NCBI GenBank assembly: GCA_948472945.1
Contig: CAOKVX010000012.1
Span: 18,400-82,399, forward strand
Length of the DNA: 64,000 nt
From: an uncultured Clostridia bacterium
GTDB lineage: Bacteria > Bacillota > Clostridia > Lachnospirales > Lachnospiraceae
Reading direction: 5' to 3'
Shown: positions 2,738 through 57,629 of the stretch, one piece after another
Layout of the letters: each line of letters begins with the position of its first letter
Position numbering within the stretch: position 1 is the stretch's first letter
Translations under genes and position numbers: made by a program
Notes under the pieces: generated by a model
The model's input: the letters and a program-made list of their open reading frames with translations, nothing else
The model's database searches: none
Told to the model about the DNA's origin: nothing

Positions 2738-3571
2738 TTATTTAACGCTTTTTAATTCAACCACCATAATCTCGGGCTTATTGTTAATCCTTATTGGAAT
2801 TGTGTGTGCGCCAAGCCCCCTGCTGAGATACATTTTTGACACATGTCCGTCAGCTTTTCTTTTCATTCTGAACTCACCGAAATCATACTTAGGAAAAAGC
2901 TCCAGCGCCGGCGATATCACCCCTCCGATAAACGGAAGGACCATAATTCCGCCATGCACATGTCCCGAGAGCACAATATCAGCTCCCCATCCGGCATACT
3001 GCTCAAAATAAACAGGATTGTGAGCTATCAATATTGAAAGCCCGCCGCCGTCTGCGCCACATACCCCGTCAGAGCTTACAAGCCTTTGCAAATAACTGTC
3101 GGGCATATTCCTTTTTCCAAATTTTTTGTAATATTTTCTTTTTATATTAATGCCTGTAACAGAAATTTTACTTTCACCCCTGGATATATGGCATGATTTG
3201 TTATTGAGATAATGAACGCCTATTTTACGCAATGCCCTCCTGTACTGCCGGTATTCCTCCCTCGTCACGGGATTGAGCGCAAGCTTTAGCTCATGGTTTC
3301 CGCAGCCATAGTATATCTCATACGATTTTGACAGAGATTTGAGCAAATCATATGTAATATGCATATTTATTGCATTATCGCTTACCATATCCCCGGCAGT
3401 CATTACTGAATCCGGATTTATCTCTCGTATCTTTTGTAAAATCAAGCTGTTGCCCGTCCCGACCTCATTAGCATGAAGGTCGGAGAGGACAGCTATTTTA
3501 TATCCGTCGAAATCACCGTTAACTTTAGGCGAGCTATATATGTATTTTGATATTGAAATTCTATTTGACAT
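2738..3571 (-). CDS. Calcineurin-like metallophosphoesterase
   Basis: Binuclear metal phosphoesterase of the YkuE/YaeI-like class. The metal-ligand motifs appear in order: SDLHAN (Asp31, His33), GD at 60-61, GNHE at 91-94, IAHNP near 180 and SGHVHGG near 202. There is no N-terminal membrane anchor, unlike many YkuE homologues, so it is probably cytoplasmic. Length 277 residues. AAGGAG 9 bases upstream supports the start. It follows the TraX-like gene by 22 bases, suggesting cotranscription. The substrate cannot be told from sequence; family members act on phospholipid-related or nucleotide substrates. Confidence 0.88.
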   Translation of the reverse strand: MSNRISISKYIYSSPKVNGDFDGYKIAVLSDLHANEVGTGNSLILQKIREINPDSVMTAGDMVSDNAINMHITYDLLKSLSKSYEIYYGCGNHELKLALNPVTREEYRQYRRALRKIGVHYLNNKSCHISRGESKISVTGINIKRKYYKKFGKRNMPDSYLQRLVSSDGVCGADGGGLSILIAHNPVYFEQYAGWGADIVLSGHVHGGIMVLPFIGGVISPALELFPKYDFGEFRMKRKADGHVSKMYLSRGLGAHTIPIRINNKPEIMVVELKSVK

Positions 3572-6789: not shown

Positions 6790-7572
6790 TCACATCGACA
6801 TAGATATAAGCTTTTCATCACCATAGAACATATCCGTCCTGACTATATCGTACTTATATCTGTTATACTCACAATCAGACCCCGTCTTCATACTATAACT
6901 TTCAAGAAACATGTCAGGTCTTATATTGACGTCGCTCCCTGATTTGCAGAGCACATAAAGGGCGTCCGCACTATACGCCATCTTTTTCTCATAATCATTG
7001 TCACGTACCGCAATACTTTCTGCAAGGGCGCAGTATTTTTCATATCCTGCTGCTACGGCGTATATACCTTGCTTTAAATCTAACTCTTTAACAGATTTCT
7101 TTGTCTGTTTTTCATATTTTATCTCATTCTCGCTATTAAAAAATTCTTCCACTAGCGCTGCCTGCTCCGGCTCCATTCCATATATTACATATGACGCCGC
7201 GCTAAGAAGCGACATTGACGGCTTCGCATTGTCAGGCTGTCTGTATATACCGGTTACAGTTACCATTTCGTTGGAAAATAAATTTATTCTTTCAATCCAC
7301 TCTTTTACGTCCAGAGTCCTGCCGATGTAATCGTCCCCTGCAAGCGACGTCACCTTATATGACTCAAGCGATACGTTCAGGTAATCCGCCACAGTAGTCA
7401 CGCCAAGACCCAGCGGGGATGCAAACGACATGATCTGGTGCGGATTAAATCCCTGAGAATAAGATACGTCAAACCCGCATCTTCTAAACAGCTTTTGAAA
7501 ATATCTCATCAAATCAAGGTGCCCTATATATTGCATCGAGCCCGTCTTAGTAAATCTGATTCTCACTTTCAT
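6790..7572 (-). CDS. TIGR03936/DUF2344 radical SAM-associated protein
   Basis: Member of the family that nearly always sits next to, or is fused with, the TIGR03960 radical SAM protein. Recognised by the N-terminal VRIRFTKTGSMQYIGHLDLM and by YSQGFNPHQIMSFA. The frame is open back to 7614, but a TAATG overlap with the stop of the radical SAM gene plus AAAGGAGG 12 bases upstream indicates the start at 7572, giving 260 residues and translational coupling. Its biochemical role is not established; the neighbourhood with RNase G suggests an RNA or ribosome-related function (inference). Confidence 0.93.
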   Translation of the reverse strand: MKVRIRFTKTGSMQYIGHLDLMRYFQKLFRRCGFDVSYSQGFNPHQIMSFASPLGLGVTTVADYLNVSLESYKVTSLAGDDYIGRTLDVKEWIERINLFSNEMVTVTGIYRQPDNAKPSMSLLSAASYVIYGMEPEQAALVEEFFNSENEIKYEKQTKKSVKELDLKQGIYAVAAGYEKYCALAESIAVRDNDYEKKMAYSADALYVLCKSGSDVNIRPDMFLESYSMKTGSDCEYNRYKYDIVRTDMFYGDEKLISMSM

Positions 7573-9428
7573 TAAAATTTGCAGCCTCCTTTCAGATACA
7601 CAGACGCCCCGCATCCGCAGCAGTTAACAAAACAATTATCTGTCGTCTCCGCCCTCATGGACTTCTCATATTCTGATATCAGATGACGCTTAGTAACGCC
7701 TATATCAATAAAATCCCACGGCAAAATTTCGTCTAAGCCACGTTTTCTATGCGTATAGAATAGTGGGTTGACACCGTTCTCCTCAAATGCCTCGTCCCAT
7801 TTGTCCGCATCAAAATACTCAGACCATGCGTCAAACATACATCCCTTTCTATATGCGCTTAGAAGAACCTGCGCACACTTTCTGTCGCCTCTTGCAAACA
7901 CGCCCTCAAGGACTGACAGCTCGGAATCGTGGCTGTTATACTTTATACTTTTCTGATTAAGCTGTTTTCGTATGCAGCTCATAAGATATCCTTTTTTAGA
8001 CGTAAAATCATCCGCCTCGTTCATGGCCTCCCACTGGAACGGCGTAAACGGCTTCGGCACAAATAGAGATGTGCTTACCACTACATTTACCTTACCGTTA
8101 CGTTTATCTTTCGGAATACTGTAATATTCCGCGGCAATCTTATTTGCAAGTTCTGCGATTGCCGCAATATCATCCTCCGTCTCTGACGGAAGCCCAAGCA
8201 TAAAATAAAGCTTGACCCGGTTCCATCCTCCGTCAAAGGCGTCCTTCGCCCCCTTTAAAATAATCTCCTCGGTTAAGCCCTTGTTGATTACATTTCTAAG
8301 CCTCTGCGAGCCTGCCTCCGGCGCAAACGTCAGACTGCTCTTTCTCACATCCTGCACCTTGCCCATAACGTCCAGCGAAAATGCATCTATCCTTAGCGAA
8401 GGCAGCGATATATTTACCCTTTTATCCTGAAACTCTTCTATAAGGAAATAGACAAGTTCCTGAAGATGTTTGTAATCGCTTGAGCTTAGCGAGCTTAGCG
8501 ATATTTCCTCATAACCGGTCGATTGTATCATTTTCCTTGCAAGCGCCTTTAGATATTCGACATCCCTGATTCTTAACGGCCTGTATATCATACCGGCCTG
8601 GCAGAAACGGCATCCCCTCACGCATCCGCGCATAATCTCAAGTACGGCCCTGTCCTGCGTCGCTTTTATATATGGTACAAGAGGCTTGTCCGGATAATAC
8701 TTTTCAAGGTCAGTCTCAGCCTGTTTTTTTATCTTATCGGGAATCTCTTTTATCTTTTTCTCAAACGAAGCAATAGTTCCGTCTTCATTATACGCCGCTT
8801 CGTACAGCGACGGAACATATAATCCCTCGATACACGCCGCCTTTTTTAGAAATTCTTTTCTGTCATAACCTGATTTTTTCATGATTTTATACAAGTCAAG
8901 AAGCTCGTCGTACACGGTTTCTCCTTCTCCTATATAAAATATATCAAAAAACTCATGCAGGGGTTCAGGGTTATATGAACACGGGCCTCCGCCGATTACT
9001 ATCGGGTCGTTGTCAGTCCTATCATGCGCCGAAAGCGGTATCTGCGACAAATCAAGTATCTGCAGCACGTTAGTATAGCACATCTCATACTGAAGCGTAA
9101 TACCTAAAAAATCAAATTCCTTTACCGCATCCTGTGATTCAAGCGCAAATAAAGGTATATTTTCCCTGCGCATTATTTTATCCAAATCATGCCACGGGGA
9201 ATATACCCTCTCACACCACGTATCGGACCTACGGTTAAACATATCGTACAGTATCTGTATTCCAAGATGCGACATTCCAATCTCATATACATCCGGAAAA
9301 CACATACAAAATCTTATATCCGTCTCATTTAGGTCTTTTACGACACTGTTAAGTTCGTCTCCTATATATCTGGCCGGCTTCTCAACCGACATAAGTATCT
9401 CTTTGCTTAGCGCTAGTTTCTTTGCCAA
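7572..9428 (-). CDS. TIGR03960 B12-binding-fold radical SAM protein
   Basis: Radical SAM enzyme with an N-terminal B12-binding-like domain (residues about 20-190) and a radical SAM domain with the 4Fe-4S motif CVRGCRFCQAG. The C-terminus is cysteine-rich (NCFVNCCGCGA), possibly another cluster site. Length 618 residues is normal for the family. It starts with TTG, supported by CGGAGG 7 bases upstream. It is the first gene of a unit with TIGR03936 and RNase G. The long leader upstream is the structured repeat element whose promoter is at 9760-9788, so that element probably drives this operon. Substrate unknown. Confidence 0.95.
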   Translation of the reverse strand: MAKKLALSKEILMSVEKPARYIGDELNSVVKDLNETDIRFCMCFPDVYEIGMSHLGIQILYDMFNRRSDTWCERVYSPWHDLDKIMRRENIPLFALESQDAVKEFDFLGITLQYEMCYTNVLQILDLSQIPLSAHDRTDNDPIVIGGGPCSYNPEPLHEFFDIFYIGEGETVYDELLDLYKIMKKSGYDRKEFLKKAACIEGLYVPSLYEAAYNEDGTIASFEKKIKEIPDKIKKQAETDLEKYYPDKPLVPYIKATQDRAVLEIMRGCVRGCRFCQAGMIYRPLRIRDVEYLKALARKMIQSTGYEEISLSSLSSSDYKHLQELVYFLIEEFQDKRVNISLPSLRIDAFSLDVMGKVQDVRKSSLTFAPEAGSQRLRNVINKGLTEEIILKGAKDAFDGGWNRVKLYFMLGLPSETEDDIAAIAELANKIAAEYYSIPKDKRNGKVNVVVSTSLFVPKPFTPFQWEAMNEADDFTSKKGYLMSCIRKQLNQKSIKYNSHDSELSVLEGVFARGDRKCAQVLLSAYRKGCMFDAWSEYFDADKWDEAFEENGVNPLFYTHRKRGLDEILPWDFIDIGVTKRHLISEYEKSMRAETTDNCFVNCCGCGASVYLKGGCKF

Positions 9429-9458
9429 AATTAACCTCCGATTTATAATTTTATTACA

Positions 9459-9649
9459 CTTTCTCGTTCACGGGCGGTCGCCCTATACTGCTCTTTCGCA
9501 GTGCTATCTCTAAGCCTCTGGCTTTCTCGTTCACGGGCATTCGCCCTATACTGCTCTTTCGCAGTGCTATCTCGAAAGCCAACGGCTTTCTCGTTCACGG
9601 GCATTCGCCCTATACTGCTCTTTCGCAGTGCTATCTCGAAAGCCAACGG
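9459..9649 (-). repeat. Tandem array of 64-bp structured repeat units
   Basis: Three head-to-tail units (9459-9521, 63 bp; 9522-9585 and 9586-9649, 64 bp each and identical), followed by a partial fourth at 9650-9677 that runs into the long hairpin. On the minus strand each unit contains GGGC-GNNN-GCCC, AAGCC-NNN-GGCTT and ACTGC-GAAAGA-GCAGT. The oldest-looking unit (9459-9521) changes the loops (GAAT to GACC, GTT to AGA) while keeping the stems. Spurious reading frames rich in Ala, Arg and Glu cross it. It sits in the leader of the radical SAM operon. Confidence 0.9.
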
Positions 9650-9742
9650 CTTTCTCGTTCACGGGCATTCGCCCTATCGGTAAATATAAAAGCGGATTAG
9701 GCTGTAAACAGCCAATCCGTCTTTTATATTTACCGGCACTGC
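9625..9742 (-). ncRNA. Candidate structured leader RNA, copy A
   Basis: Minus-strand fold seen directly: closing helix GCAGTGC (9736-9742) with GCACTGC (9625-9631). Inside it are a 27-base-arm hairpin (9678-9735, loop TAAA, 15 outer pairs perfect), a GGGC-GAAT-GCCC hairpin (9663-9674) and a GAAAGCC-GTT-GGCTTTC hairpin (9638-9654). The same four helices occur in copy B at 57467-57583, with paired changes in the long helix. It lies about 10 bases after the predicted transcription start and about 200 bases before the radical SAM start codon. Function unknown; I do not recognise a named RNA class. Confidence 0.7.
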
Positions 9743-9759
9743 TCATTGCTTTCGTGGAC

Positions 9760-9788
9760 ATTATATCATGTTGCGGCAGTTTTTGCTA
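9760..9788 (-). promoter_or_regulatory. Extended -10 promoter of structured element copy A
   Basis: TGATATAAT gives a consensus -10 with the TGn extension; the -35 TAGCAA at 17 bases is weak. The same arrangement occurs at copy B. Predicted start near 9753, giving a leader of about 325 bases to the radical SAM gene. Confidence 0.65.
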
Positions 9789-44480: not shown

Positions 44481-44643
44481 TGTATATTATTCCTTTGTTT
44501 TATCTGATACCCATTCTATAAAAATTTATTGTTTATCTTAATCATTCGTCAAATATTCATGAAAGCACGGATGTTTTCCTCATTGATTTGCATGAATAGA
44601 AAATTAAATTTTCATTTTATTTTTTTCAGTTAAAATATATAAT

Positions 44644-44987
44644 GAGCAGCGCTGTAAGCCGGGTTCTGTCTTGGGTAATCATCTATCTAATCCTGCTGTT
44701 GCCAACAGGCTTAAGCGACCTACCCGAAAGCACGACGGGCCGCCGTATAGCTTTCTGTTCGGTCTTGCTTCGGATGGGGTTTACATGTGCCTTTGCCGTT
44801 ACCGACAAAGCGGTGGGCTCTTACCCCGCCTTTCCACCCTTACCCGCCGTAGGCGGGCGGTTTATTTCTGTTGCACTGGCCTGAGAGTCACCTCCACCGG
44901 ACGTTATCCGGCATCCTGCCCTGCGAAGCCCGGACTTTCCTCACCTGCTGTCTTTCGACATTGCAGCCGCGATTACCCGCGCTGCTC
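44644..44987 (-). ncRNA. rnpB: RNase P RNA, bacterial type A
   Basis: Catalytic RNA of RNase P, maturing tRNA 5' ends. On the minus strand P1 is closed by GAGCAGCGC (44979-44987) with GCGCTGCTC (44644-44652); universally conserved GAGGAAAGTCCGGGCT, GGGTGGAAAGG with GGTAAGAGCCCACCG, and AGACAGAACCCGGCTTA are all present. About 344 nt. Type A folding, seen in Clostridia, rather than Bacillus type B. Short plus-strand frames across it are shadows. Confidence 0.97.
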
Positions 44988-45073
44988 AGTATAATCCACT
45001 ATATAACAAAAAACAAAACTTTTACTCTCACAGATTGTATGATACTTAACTCAAGAAATATCTTTCGCACATA

Positions 45074-54993: not shown

Positions 54994-57366
54994 TTATAAA
55001 TCATATACAATTTTTTCAAACTCTGAGACGTTTACAGGTTTTGAGAAGAAAAATCCCTGAGCTATATTACAGCCGGATTCTATTAGTACGTCAACCTGCT
55101 CCTCAGTCTCAACTCCCTCCACAACTACATCCATGCTCTGCATGTCAATCATTGATATTGTGCTTGCTACCAGCATTCTGTCACGCTTGCTTTCTGTGAC
55201 AGCGCTTATAAACTCCTTGTCAAGCTTTACGATGTCGAACGGAGCTGATTTAAGAGTGTTAAGCGACGAATAGCCAGAGGCAAAATCATCCATCAAAAGC
55301 ACAAAGTTCTTTTCCTTGAGCTTATACATAAGGTCGTAAAGTTCGCTCGAATCCTCAAGCAGGGCGCTCTCCGTAAATTCAAGCTGCAAAAGTTCCACGG
55401 GAATATCATATTTTTTGACAAGCATACACAATTTTTCCACAAGATGCTTGTTATATACATGTACTCTTGAAATGTTTACCGAGACCGGAATTTTGCTGTA
55501 TCCCATTTTGTTCCATCTGCTCAGGCACTTACATGTTTCCTCCCAGACATATTCGTCAAGCTTTAGGATATTGCCGTTTTTCTCAAATACCGGAATAAAT
55601 GAATCAGGCCTTATAATTCCTTTTACCGGATGTTTCCATCTCACTAGCGCCTCCGCCCCGACTATTTCATTAGTGTGCATATTGTATTTTGGCTGAAGCT
55701 GTATAAAAAACTGATGCTCATCGAACGCGGCCTGCGTACTTGTCTCAATAAATTTAATATCCATATTTATTCTGTTTACAACAGTATCGTAATACGAAAA
55801 TGTGCTAAGCATGTTTCCTTTAATTAAGCTGAGTGCAATTCCAGCCCTGTCACACATAAGATAAACGGGCAGTTCTTTTTCGGCGTCAAGGTATATTCCA
55901 AAATGCGGTATTATGTTAACGGCAATATCATATTCAATTATATCTTTCTTTATTCTGTTAAGCATTTCCTCTATATCCATTACAGACGAATACTTTACGC
56001 ACATTACGAATACGTCTCCGGATATCCTGCCGCATATGCTGTCCTCGTTAATATTCCTTTCAAGCGAATTTGCAATGTATCTTAGCACATTGTCCCCGAC
56101 CTGCCAGCTGTATATATCATTAACAACCCGGAAATGGTCTATGTCAAGACGTATAATTGCATATCTTCCGCTTGCAGGGTCATTATTTTTAATAAGTTCC
56201 TGCGCCTTAATATAAAATGTCGTTATATTATAAATATTTGTTACTCCGTCATGTTCTGCGGTGCGTTTAAGGAAATCAATAGTATTGTTGAAAGCTACTG
56301 CGAGCTCACCAAATTCGTCGTCACTGTCAACTTTCATCTTGTCGTCATAATTGCCCTCGGCAATACCTATTGTATTTTTCCTGACGCTGTTAATCTTGTG
56401 TACAAACCTTATAATATATGTTATCAATATTATACTGATAACTATACACGCCACGATAACCGTAATAATAAGCGGGAATGTTATAGCTGCTATATTATCA
56501 TTTATCTCATCTTTGTTAACCAGATATATAACCCTCCATCCGGTCATCGAAAAAGTGGTGTCGACGGCATAATATTTTCTTCCATTGTATGAGATATTTT
56601 CGGATTCATCAAACACAACACTTTTGGCGGCCTTTGTAAGCTCATTGTATTTGTTCAGCAATACCGCATTTTTACAGTAGCTGAGTCCGCCTTCAGGGTC
56701 TACTATAAGCGCTATTGCGTCCTTATATCCGCTAATAGTCATAATTGAATTCAGGTAATTCATAGTTACTTCTATTCCGTAAGCGCCGATAAGCTCATTG
56801 GTCCTCCAGTCAAGTACCGGACATACTACACTCACAACCTTGTTATTGCTGTATTTGTCCGATATTTCAGTCTCGTATATCTCAGAAAAATATACGTCTC
56901 CCTTTGAAAGCGCCGACTCCTCATACCAAGGTATGGAGTTAAAATCACTGACATTTATAATTCCCTTTTTATTTATTTCATCCGTCACAAGAATTCCTTT
57001 ATCAAACACGGCAAGCCACGATGATACAATATTATCGGGATTGTACATAACATATTCGTTTAAAAGCCCTAAGGTATTATTGTAAAAAGTCTGCTCCTTA
57101 TCCGGTTCAATATTGTTAATATAACTGTATATTACGCTGTAGCCTTTATCAAAATCAAGAATATCTTTAAATGAATTCAGATTTTCAAAAACATTTGTAT
57201 CGTTTCTGTATGACTGCTCAACTATTTCCTGCCTGATAGAGCCGATTTTATTTTGCGATACCACAACAAAGCACACTGCTCCTACCATTATCAAAACAAA
57301 TAATGCAGGAATCAGTGTACTTACAATAAACTTTAAGCCTAATTTACTTATTTTAGCTTTTTTCAT
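54994..57366 (-). CDS. Membrane c-di-GMP phosphodiesterase with degenerate GGDEF
   Basis: 790 residues. Membrane segments near 14-34 and 290-315 enclose an extracellular dCache-type sensor (about 35-285), followed by HAMP (about 300-350), a GGDEF domain (about 375-530) whose motif is SGDVF in place of GGDEF, and an EAL domain (about 545-785) with GAEALVRW, LEFTESALL, MDDFASGYSSL, VKLDKEFI and VEGVETEEQ. The EAL catalytic residues are intact, the cyclase signature is not, so it should break down c-di-GMP. It follows structured repeat copy B, which carries its promoter. Confidence 0.94.
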   Translation of the reverse strand: MKKAKISKLGLKFIVSTLIPALFVLIMVGAVCFVVVSQNKIGSIRQEIVEQSYRNDTNVFENLNSFKDILDFDKGYSVIYSYINNIEPDKEQTFYNNTLGLLNEYVMYNPDNIVSSWLAVFDKGILVTDEINKKGIINVSDFNSIPWYEESALSKGDVYFSEIYETEISDKYSNNKVVSVVCPVLDWRTNELIGAYGIEVTMNYLNSIMTISGYKDAIALIVDPEGGLSYCKNAVLLNKYNELTKAAKSVVFDESENISYNGRKYYAVDTTFSMTGWRVIYLVNKDEINDNIAAITFPLIITVIVACIVISIILITYIIRFVHKINSVRKNTIGIAEGNYDDKMKVDSDDEFGELAVAFNNTIDFLKRTAEHDGVTNIYNITTFYIKAQELIKNNDPASGRYAIIRLDIDHFRVVNDIYSWQVGDNVLRYIANSLERNINEDSICGRISGDVFVMCVKYSSVMDIEEMLNRIKKDIIEYDIAVNIIPHFGIYLDAEKELPVYLMCDRAGIALSLIKGNMLSTFSYYDTVVNRINMDIKFIETSTQAAFDEHQFFIQLQPKYNMHTNEIVGAEALVRWKHPVKGIIRPDSFIPVFEKNGNILKLDEYVWEETCKCLSRWNKMGYSKIPVSVNISRVHVYNKHLVEKLCMLVKKYDIPVELLQLEFTESALLEDSSELYDLMYKLKEKNFVLLMDDFASGYSSLNTLKSAPFDIVKLDKEFISAVTESKRDRMLVASTISMIDMQSMDVVVEGVETEEQVDVLIESGCNIAQGFFFSKPVNVSEFEKIVYDL

Positions 57367-57412
57367 ATAAGCGACCTACCATATAACAGAGTATTAATAT
57401 AAGGTGCGAAAT

Positions 57413-57519
57413 CGAAAGCCGATGGCTTCCTCGTTCACGGGCTTTCGAACATTGCTGCTCTTTCTCGCAGTGCACACTCGAAAGCCGATGGCTTCCTCGT
57501 TCACGGGCTTTCGCCCTAT
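57413..57519 (-). repeat. Structured repeat units, copy B
   Basis: Two related units (57413-57478, 66 bp, and 57479-57519, partial, running into the long hairpin), related to the 64-bp units at 9459-9649. Shared pieces include TCGTTCACGGGC, CCCTAT and GCAGTGC; hairpin loops differ. Fewer units than copy A. Confidence 0.85.
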
Positions 57520-57583
57520 CGGTACATTCATAGGCAGATTAGACTGTAAACAGCCAATCTGCCTATGAATGTACCGGCACTGC
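57467..57583 (-). ncRNA. Candidate structured leader RNA, copy B
   Basis: Same architecture as copy A: closing helix GCAGTGC (57577-57583) with GCACTGC (57467-57473); a long hairpin at 57520-57576 (21 consecutive pairs next to the closing helix, loop TAAA); GGGC-GAAA-GCCC at 57505-57516; GGAAGCC-ATC-GGCTTTC at 57480-57496. Six pairs in the long helix differ from copy A on both sides. It lies in the leader of the EAL gene. Confidence 0.7.
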
Positions 57584-57600
57584 TCAATGCTTTCGTGGAT

Positions 57601-57629
57601 ATTATACCATTTGATTCCAGTTCGGTCAA
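57601..57629 (-). promoter_or_regulatory. Promoter of structured element copy B
   Basis: TTGACC, 17-base spacer with TGG immediately before TATAAT, so a strong extended -10 promoter. Start near 57594; leader of about 228 bases to the EAL gene. Confidence 0.8.

Follow-up and report, generated by a model that had tools for sequence, protein, structure and literature searches.

A dispersed four-way-junction element with a covarying 5' leader, a candidate leader RNA upstream of unrelated genes in the Lachnospiraceae

A structured element is repeated in many genomes of the Lachnospiraceae, and two of its copies, A and B, lie on the minus strand of the window – the whole stretch of 64,000 nucleotides, from an uncultured Clostridia bacterium of this family, that was analyzed here. 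The paired structure of the element is conserved while the sequence drifts, with strong and strand-specific covariation, and a short leader on its 5' side covaries with bases inside the junction; the formation of this leader pairing in RNA is suggested by the sequences. Most copies follow a promoter-like box and point toward the next gene, the genes downstream are of mixed kinds, and at three sites the element is absent from other genomes of the genus. That the element exists, folds in this way and is widespread is held with high confidence, its mechanism with modest confidence: tentatively, it is read as a mobile, cis-acting leader whose pseudoknotted four-way junction may lock the 5' end of the message and so protect it.

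In copy A, the box TGATATAAT is followed by 17 nt and then by GCAGTGC, which pairs with GCACTGC and encloses a long hairpin (P1; loop TTTA on the minus strand), a short hairpin (P2), and a third hairpin (P3) that contains GAAAGCC-GTT-GGCTTTC at 9654-9638 (Table 1). A first-pass annotation of the window had reported the extended -10 box, a position of copy A upstream of a radical SAM operon, and the same helices in both copies; the sequence, the downstream genes (for copy A, TIGR03960 – TIGR03936 – RNase E/G) and RNA folding of the two copies agree with it. Missing from that annotation were the pairing role of the 5' leader and the tandem of P2-P3 modules behind copy A, which has four units including the copy's own, with a period of 63-64 nt. 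Elsewhere in the window, the minus strand encodes a class A RNase P RNA at 44639-44988 (RF00010, 317.9 bits).

Table 1. Positions in the window of the two copies of the element, their parts and the genes downstream
Feature	Position	Strand	Basis
Extended -10 promoter-like box TGATATAAT, copy A	9760-9768	-	read from sequence
5' pseudoknot strand CAC, copy A	9754-9756	-	covariation with 9660-9662 in relatives
Closing stem 5' strand GCAGTGC, copy A	9736-9742	-	fold and pair counts
Long hairpin P1, copy A	9678-9735	-	fold and covariation
Hairpin P2 GGGC-GAAT-GCCC, copy A	9663-9674	-	fold; nearly invariant in relatives
3' pseudoknot strand GTG, copy A	9660-9662	-	covariation with 9754-9756 in relatives
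Third hairpin P3 with GAG/CGA internal loop, copy A	9635-9657	-	fold; tandem G-A columns in relatives
Closing stem 3' strand GCACTGC, copy A	9625-9631	-	fold and pair counts
P2-P3 module tandem repeats 3' of copy A, last truncated	9458-9624	-	
Gene downstream of copy A, TIGR03960 family B12-binding radical SAM protein	7572-9428	-	
-10 box TATAAT, copy B	57601-57606	-	
Copy B, whole	57467-57597	-	
CAC leader, copy B	57595-57597	-	
Closing stem 5' strand, copy B	57577-57583	-	
Long hairpin, copy B	57520-57576	-	
P2, copy B	57505-57516	-	
GTG, copy B	57502-57504	-	
P3, copy B (after GTG)		-	
Closing stem 3' strand, copy B	57467-57473	-	
Single further partial P2-P3 module 3' of copy B	57404-57466	-	
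Gene downstream of copy B, GGDEF-EAL protein	54994-57366	-	

The minimum-energy RNA fold of both copies is the four-way junction, with -63.8 kcal/mol (z = -11.25) for copy A and -72.8 kcal/mol (z = -11.83) for copy B (57583-57467); in neither case did any of 200 dinucleotide shuffles fold as well. The opposite strands score almost equally (z = -12.14 for copy A and -10.55 for copy B), so folding energy by itself carries no strand information. A scan of the unpaired alignment columns showed that P3 contains a conserved internal loop of tandem G-A (columns 224-225 opposite 291-292), which is replaced by Watson-Crick pairs in some copies.

Six paired positions differ on both sides between copies A and B, all of them in the long hairpin as the first-pass annotation had counted, and three differ on one side. 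The 14 full copies in the window's own genome were aligned without reference to structure: 18 of the 44 pairs had at least one copy in which both partners had changed and the pair was kept, and 97.2% of cells paired, values reached by none of 500 shuffles, with the count of further pair types matched by 20 of 500. Two larger alignments were fitted to the model. Among 31 diverse rows, 40 of the 44 pairs were doubly changed and 95.7% of cells paired, with no shuffle reaching these figures. Among 95 distinct rows, 34 of the 44 pairs were doubly changed, a bare count that 25 of 500 shuffles also reached; 1140 cells were doubly changed (347 in shuffles) and 90.3% of cells paired (62.5% in shuffles), both reached by none of 500. 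The same was true of the covariation scores in the 14-row and 95-row alignments, and when the partner was shifted by 1-3 columns, 31 to 46% of cells still paired in each of the three alignments. The claim, made from copies A and B, that structure is kept while sequence drifts is supported by all three sets, and the covariation test proposed with it was significant. The GGGC hairpin (P2) is nearly invariant in relatives and therefore gives little covariation evidence of its own.

These data also identify the constrained strand. When the arms of 149 long hairpins were aligned symmetrically without the model, there were 95 G.U against 38 A.C cells (p 8e-7), and 281 G.A against 6 C.T cells, part of the latter excess coming from a few conserved G-A positions, with cells that are not independent. 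The excess of G.U and G.A indicates that the constrained strand is the one reading with the downstream gene.

A three-base sequence in the 5' leader, CRC at -9 to -7 before the conserved AATGAGC, is complementary to a GYG directly 3' of the GCCC of P2. The closing stem encloses the GYG but not the leader, so this pairing crosses the stem. Both sets of bases are outside the search pattern by which the contig copies were found. The middle pair was A-T in 65, G-C in 44, G-T in 15 and A-C in none of 152 copies, with 28 other combinations (6 of which also pair); in the window's genome it was A with T in 13 of 14 copies and G with C in the remaining one (L007). By corrected mutual information in a 96-row alignment, the leader-junction pair was 4th of 820 pairs of unpaired columns, behind three that are local helix extensions or loop closure, and its neighbour was 24th of 820. 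Where the exact spacing is occupied by TATAAT with at most one mismatch, which is the case in 88 copies, the three pairs are intact in 87, 87 and 85, the middle one as 77 Watson-Crick and 10 G.U pairs; the corresponding figures for the other 65 copies are 48, 44 and 50. On a tree of 145 copies, both partners changed on the same branch 19 times (7.3 expected), and 15 of the 19 branches went from one pair to another – Fitch counts that come from a weak tree of short sequences. A hairpin inside the -10 region was considered by eye and dropped.

The transcript start bears directly on what this pairing could do. Transcription usually starts about 7 nt past the -10 box. In the promoter copies, where the box ends at -13, this spacing would presumably place the start at a G, -6 from AATGAGC, and the CRC strand would therefore be untranscribed in the very copies where the pairing is tightest. 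If that is where transcripts start, the contact must act in DNA or while the element moves. Were transcription to begin instead at -8, a conserved purine, two of the three pairs would remain.

BLAST of the whole genome of the window gave 25 matches, 14 of them full copies, and a later model gave 14 places above 120 bits and nine with lower scores, most of which are partial modules. Five contigs of this genome (C3, C7, C13, C14 and C27) have a copy, or part of one, at an end; because the assembly breaks at the repeat, copy number may be underestimated. One partial copy (L012, G000:C12:7746-7841) retains its -10 box and is missing the long hairpin, as if recombined between two GAAAGC motifs.

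Across genomes, two models were used: R1, built from the 14 copies of the window's genome, and R2, from 31 diverse copies. R1 matched 21 of 61 genomes, the window's own included. R2, with eight candidates scored per genome, matched 260 of 397 Lachnospiraceae genomes, in 228 of 334 genera. When 291 genomes sampled from the class were searched, 19 matched, 8 of them Lachnospiraceae and 11 in six other families. A search of public contigs gave at least 118 copies, and among the 80 matches listed the record titles were mostly Lachnospiraceae or its genera; one contig titled Lachnospiraceae, JAAVYC010000248.1, matches at 3082-3209, the same position as in a contig of genome G010. The columns of AATGAGC, GTGC and ATAGGGCGA are not evidence, because the pattern of this search fixes them. 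From these contig loci, 90 of the first 91 were carried into a further set and 27 others were left out of it; the locus omitted from the 91, titled beta proteobacterium (L066), looks like a chance match. At another locus (L018), seven tandem repeats of about 31 nt with GCAATGCTCATGTG and CATGAG lie 3' of the copy. No plasmid matched the element, and no viral contig matched one pattern. A phage origin was rejected: the one match in a phage collection, MT835504.1 (L056, labelled Bacteriophage sp.), reads as bacterial DNA because translations place the copy between genes resembling a Spo0A-like response regulator and glycogen synthase.

A TATAAT-like box with at most one mismatch is present 8-14 nt before AATGAGC in 72 of 118 contig copies (at least 118 are known), and ends exactly 12 nt before it in 61, 49 of them with a perfect TATAAT. 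A coarse sort of the remaining 46 placed 18 after a stop codon and 7 after a T-run, with 21 in neither group. Orientation and upstream sorting covered all 118 loci, with short upstream stretches at contig ends for L057 and L129. Non-promoter copies are often flush with the end of a gene: in 25 of 38 (the stop and other classes, L066 left out), an open frame of at least 100 codons ends between 25 nt upstream of AATGAGC and 5 nt into it, compared to 86 of 2320 random positions and 0 or 1 of 33 at each of four shifted positions; 11 of the 72 promoter-class copies and none of the 7 T-run copies are also placed in this way. In seven cases (L079, L117, L137, L148, L153, L162, L172), the TGA within AATGAGC is itself the stop codon of the upstream frame. 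Copies follow EF-Tu genes (L133, L045) and ketol-acid reductoisomerase genes (L037, L070) in different genomes, sites that are either recurrent or long kept, and one copy (L038) starts on the final base of a match to a tRNA.

Most copies share the orientation of the next gene. By ORFs from a simple script rather than gene calls, 86 of the 118 copies (at least 118 known) are on the strand of the next ORF and 14 on the opposite strand, and the upstream ORF is on the same strand for 71 and on the opposite for 35. A terminator-like site before the next ORF was found in 1 of 53 promoter-class copies. The downstream genes are unrelated, and the element is not gene-specific: in 74 downstream proteins (76 references, limited to ORFs that start no more than 400 nt away, less a duplicate and L066), 92 Pfam families were found, the commonest in 6. 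A leader peptide was rejected, as no frame from AATGAGC is kept: the distance from AATGAGC to ATAGGGCGA modulo 3 is 0, 1 and 2 in 60, 28 and 30 of the 118 copies (at least 118 known), and the ATG frame is open over 38 codons in 25.

The first-pass annotation knew of no named RNA family with this plan. That stands for the window copies themselves, neither of which matches any Rfam family at E up to 1, the outcome of the cmscan check that it proposed, and no paper on the element was found in the open PMC literature. The plan itself, however, is that of a named family, the Clostridiales-1 RNA (RF01699). Both have a seven-bp closing stem, a long first hairpin and two further hairpins around a four-way junction; the CUUG-type apex of the long hairpin in Clostridiales-1 also occurs in many relatives of the element, and the GAG/CGA internal loop with its tandem G-A can be read in printed Clostridiales-1 copies. 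Both are found in many copies in some genomes of the same bacterial family. They differ in the closing stem, which is TGATACC/GGTATCA in many Clostridiales-1 copies, and in the second hairpin, which is much longer in Clostridiales-1, with CATGAG...CGAATG, compared to the 4-bp GGGC-GCCC of the element. No TATAAT at a fixed distance was seen by eye in 16 printed Clostridiales-1 copies.

Model searches gave partial overlap between the two. RF01699 did not match copy A at E up to 10, and matched the element in 3 of 20 relatives' loci at 24.7 to 40.8 bits (cut-off 48), the best of them over its full length. In reverse, R2 matched 3 of 24 Clostridiales-1 sources at E up to 1, with a best score of 36 bits; three of the 24 repeat others, and the best match is a member below the cut-off. 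Of 18 chosen genomes, 11 contained Clostridiales-1 itself, one of them with as many as 31 matches. The window's genome has seven (L204-L210, on C10, C18, C2, C4, C5 and C9), four of them over the cut-off, and their sites never coincide with those of the present element. A known Rfam family was rejected for the window copies, Clostridiales-1 was retained as a sister only, and the element is filed, by this comparison, as a probable sister family without a name so far. Clostridiales-1 is listed as RNA 'y' and cis-regulatory 'n' in Weinberg 2010 (PMC2864571). The Rfam entry type is sRNA gene, and no published function was found in the open-access literature.

The element is present at the radical SAM, lepA and polA sites of the window's genome and absent from the same sites in the other genomes of the genus, where 0 of 9, 0 of 9 and 0 of 8 carry it (polA was not found in G008) – presence and absence at the same site in relatives, as in a mobile repeat, at 3 of 3 sites. 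For this comparison the orthologues of the downstream genes were located, their contigs were set against the places of R1 matches, and flanks were read where possible; at the radical SAM site they were readable in 8 of 9 genomes, the contig of the ninth (G005) ending there in a genome with no match at all. Copy number within the genus ranges from no match in 3 of 10 genomes to the 14 full copies here. These differences suggest that the element moves or turns over, and since it is absent from the same sites, it appears dispensable in the relatives. No clean empty site that would reveal a target-site duplication was found among the compared genomes. A Y1 transposase was rejected as the mobiliser: none was found in the window's genome, and over 397 genomes there was no association (one is present in 143 of the 260 genomes that carry the element and in 75 of the 137 that lack it; odds ratio 1.01).

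The first-pass annotation had called the promoter and fold together portable, a label that now looks doubtful. The radical SAM protein of G008 is 94% identical, and similar sequence upstream of its gene continues through TATAATG, followed by different sequence. Because G008 keeps this promoter without the element, the promoter, at copy A at least, looks resident, and the element seems to have been put in behind it. Elsewhere, 46 of 118 copies (at least 118 known) have no TATAAT-like box 8-14 nt before AATGAGC. In G006, part of the polA promoter region is likewise kept with the element absent. The 280 nt or so that follow the shared promoter in G008 (L225), in the place that copy A occupies in the window's genome, contain GGTATAAT/ATTATACC repeats and fold strongly (282 nt at -104.8 kcal/mol, a value with no shuffle control), perhaps as a second family of leader elements.

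A generic, gene-independent device at the start of the message, with a pinned leader, fits 5'-end protection, the function tentatively preferred here. The element would be transcribed as the first nucleotides of the message, and its 5' leader would be pinned by the pseudoknot into a rigid four-way junction; the locked end may then hinder RppH and the 5'-to-3' exonuclease RNase J, and inside operons the fold may stop RNase J upstream of the next gene. B. subtilis RppH is described as needing at least 2 unpaired 5' nucleotides (PMC3997798), and pseudoknotted flavivirus xrRNAs as stopping bacterial RNase J1 in vitro (PMC5760640). The element resembles the latter in having a junction and a pseudoknot that engages the 5' end, a likeness of topology only; it differs in being four-way rather than three-way, and bacterial. 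By this analogy it might be a bacterial counterpart of the viral exonuclease-resistant RNAs, setting message lifetime gene by gene by blocking RppH and RNase J, a proposal that is more doubtful than protection as such. The main objection to a protective lock is that the usual start, at -6, excludes the CRC strand. Also counted against it are the poorer pairing of the copies without a box at the exact spacing, the seven T-run copies with no TATAAT-like box, the apparent dispensability of the element at the same sites in relatives, and the shuffles that reach the bare count of doubly changed pairs.

The closest rival is that the element is a BOX- or REP-like non-autonomous mobile repeat, whose fold serves movement or is tolerated, with incidental effects on genes. 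Its variable copy number and its absence from relatives at all three compared sites favor this, as do the flush fit behind open frames, with the stop supplied in seven, and the re-use of the 3' module within 400 nt behind 33 of 103 copies. Pneumococcal BOX repeats are described as similarly modular and mobile (PMC3049150), and BOX of Streptococcus pneumoniae is like the element in being dispersed, with tandem internal modules, structured if transcribed, and near many genes. Compared by description, the element differs in its four-way junction, covarying pseudoknot and typical promoter spacing, and the hosts are unrelated. The strand-specific G.U and G.A excess, the orientation with the next gene and the tight upkeep of leader pairing at promoter copies point instead to a working RNA, and the one mobiliser considered, Y1, has no link to the element; a mobile repeat and nothing else is possible, and rather less probable than a protective leader. 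A narrower proposal concerns movement through the CRC/GYG contact itself, by which the RNA or single-stranded DNA of the element would pick insertion sites by pairing GYG with a CRC in the target. EBS-IBS and IS200/IS605 guides choose their target sites by pairing, the CRC marks the 5' limit of the conserved element and, given a canonical start, falls outside the transcript, and copies are flush behind T-runs, stop codons and promoters. A one-time contact, however, needs no compensatory change, by which the pairing is best kept in promoter copies, and Y1 is again unlinked; this proposal is quite improbable.

The remaining alternatives accept a working RNA. In one, a putative RNA-binding protein or RNA polymerase reads the junction and thereby alters elongation, termination or translation. 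The predicted position at the very start of the transcript, the conserved unpaired leader, the tandem G-A loop and the many unrelated target genes would suit such a reader, and the put and EAR antitermination RNAs are also structured leaders close behind a promoter; those act on terminators, whereas terminators are nearly absent before the gene downstream of the element. With no terminator-like site in 52 of 53 promoter-class copies there is little nearby to antiterminate, and a protein-bound leader seems unlikely. The complex conserved junction and the filing of the sister family as an sRNA gene might suggest a riboswitch that senses a ligand, or a small RNA that acts independently in trans; against the riboswitch, the 92 Pfam families in 74 downstream proteins have no common pathway, and against the small RNA, 52 of 53 promoter-class copies have no terminator-like site before the next ORF. 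Both are disfavored and have the least chance of all the readings.

Whatever its mechanism, a covariation-rich element in about two-thirds of the genomes sampled from a major gut family is worth naming. If it is protective, as is tentatively preferred here, it would be a general cis-acting device for tuning expression in organisms that are hard to manipulate.
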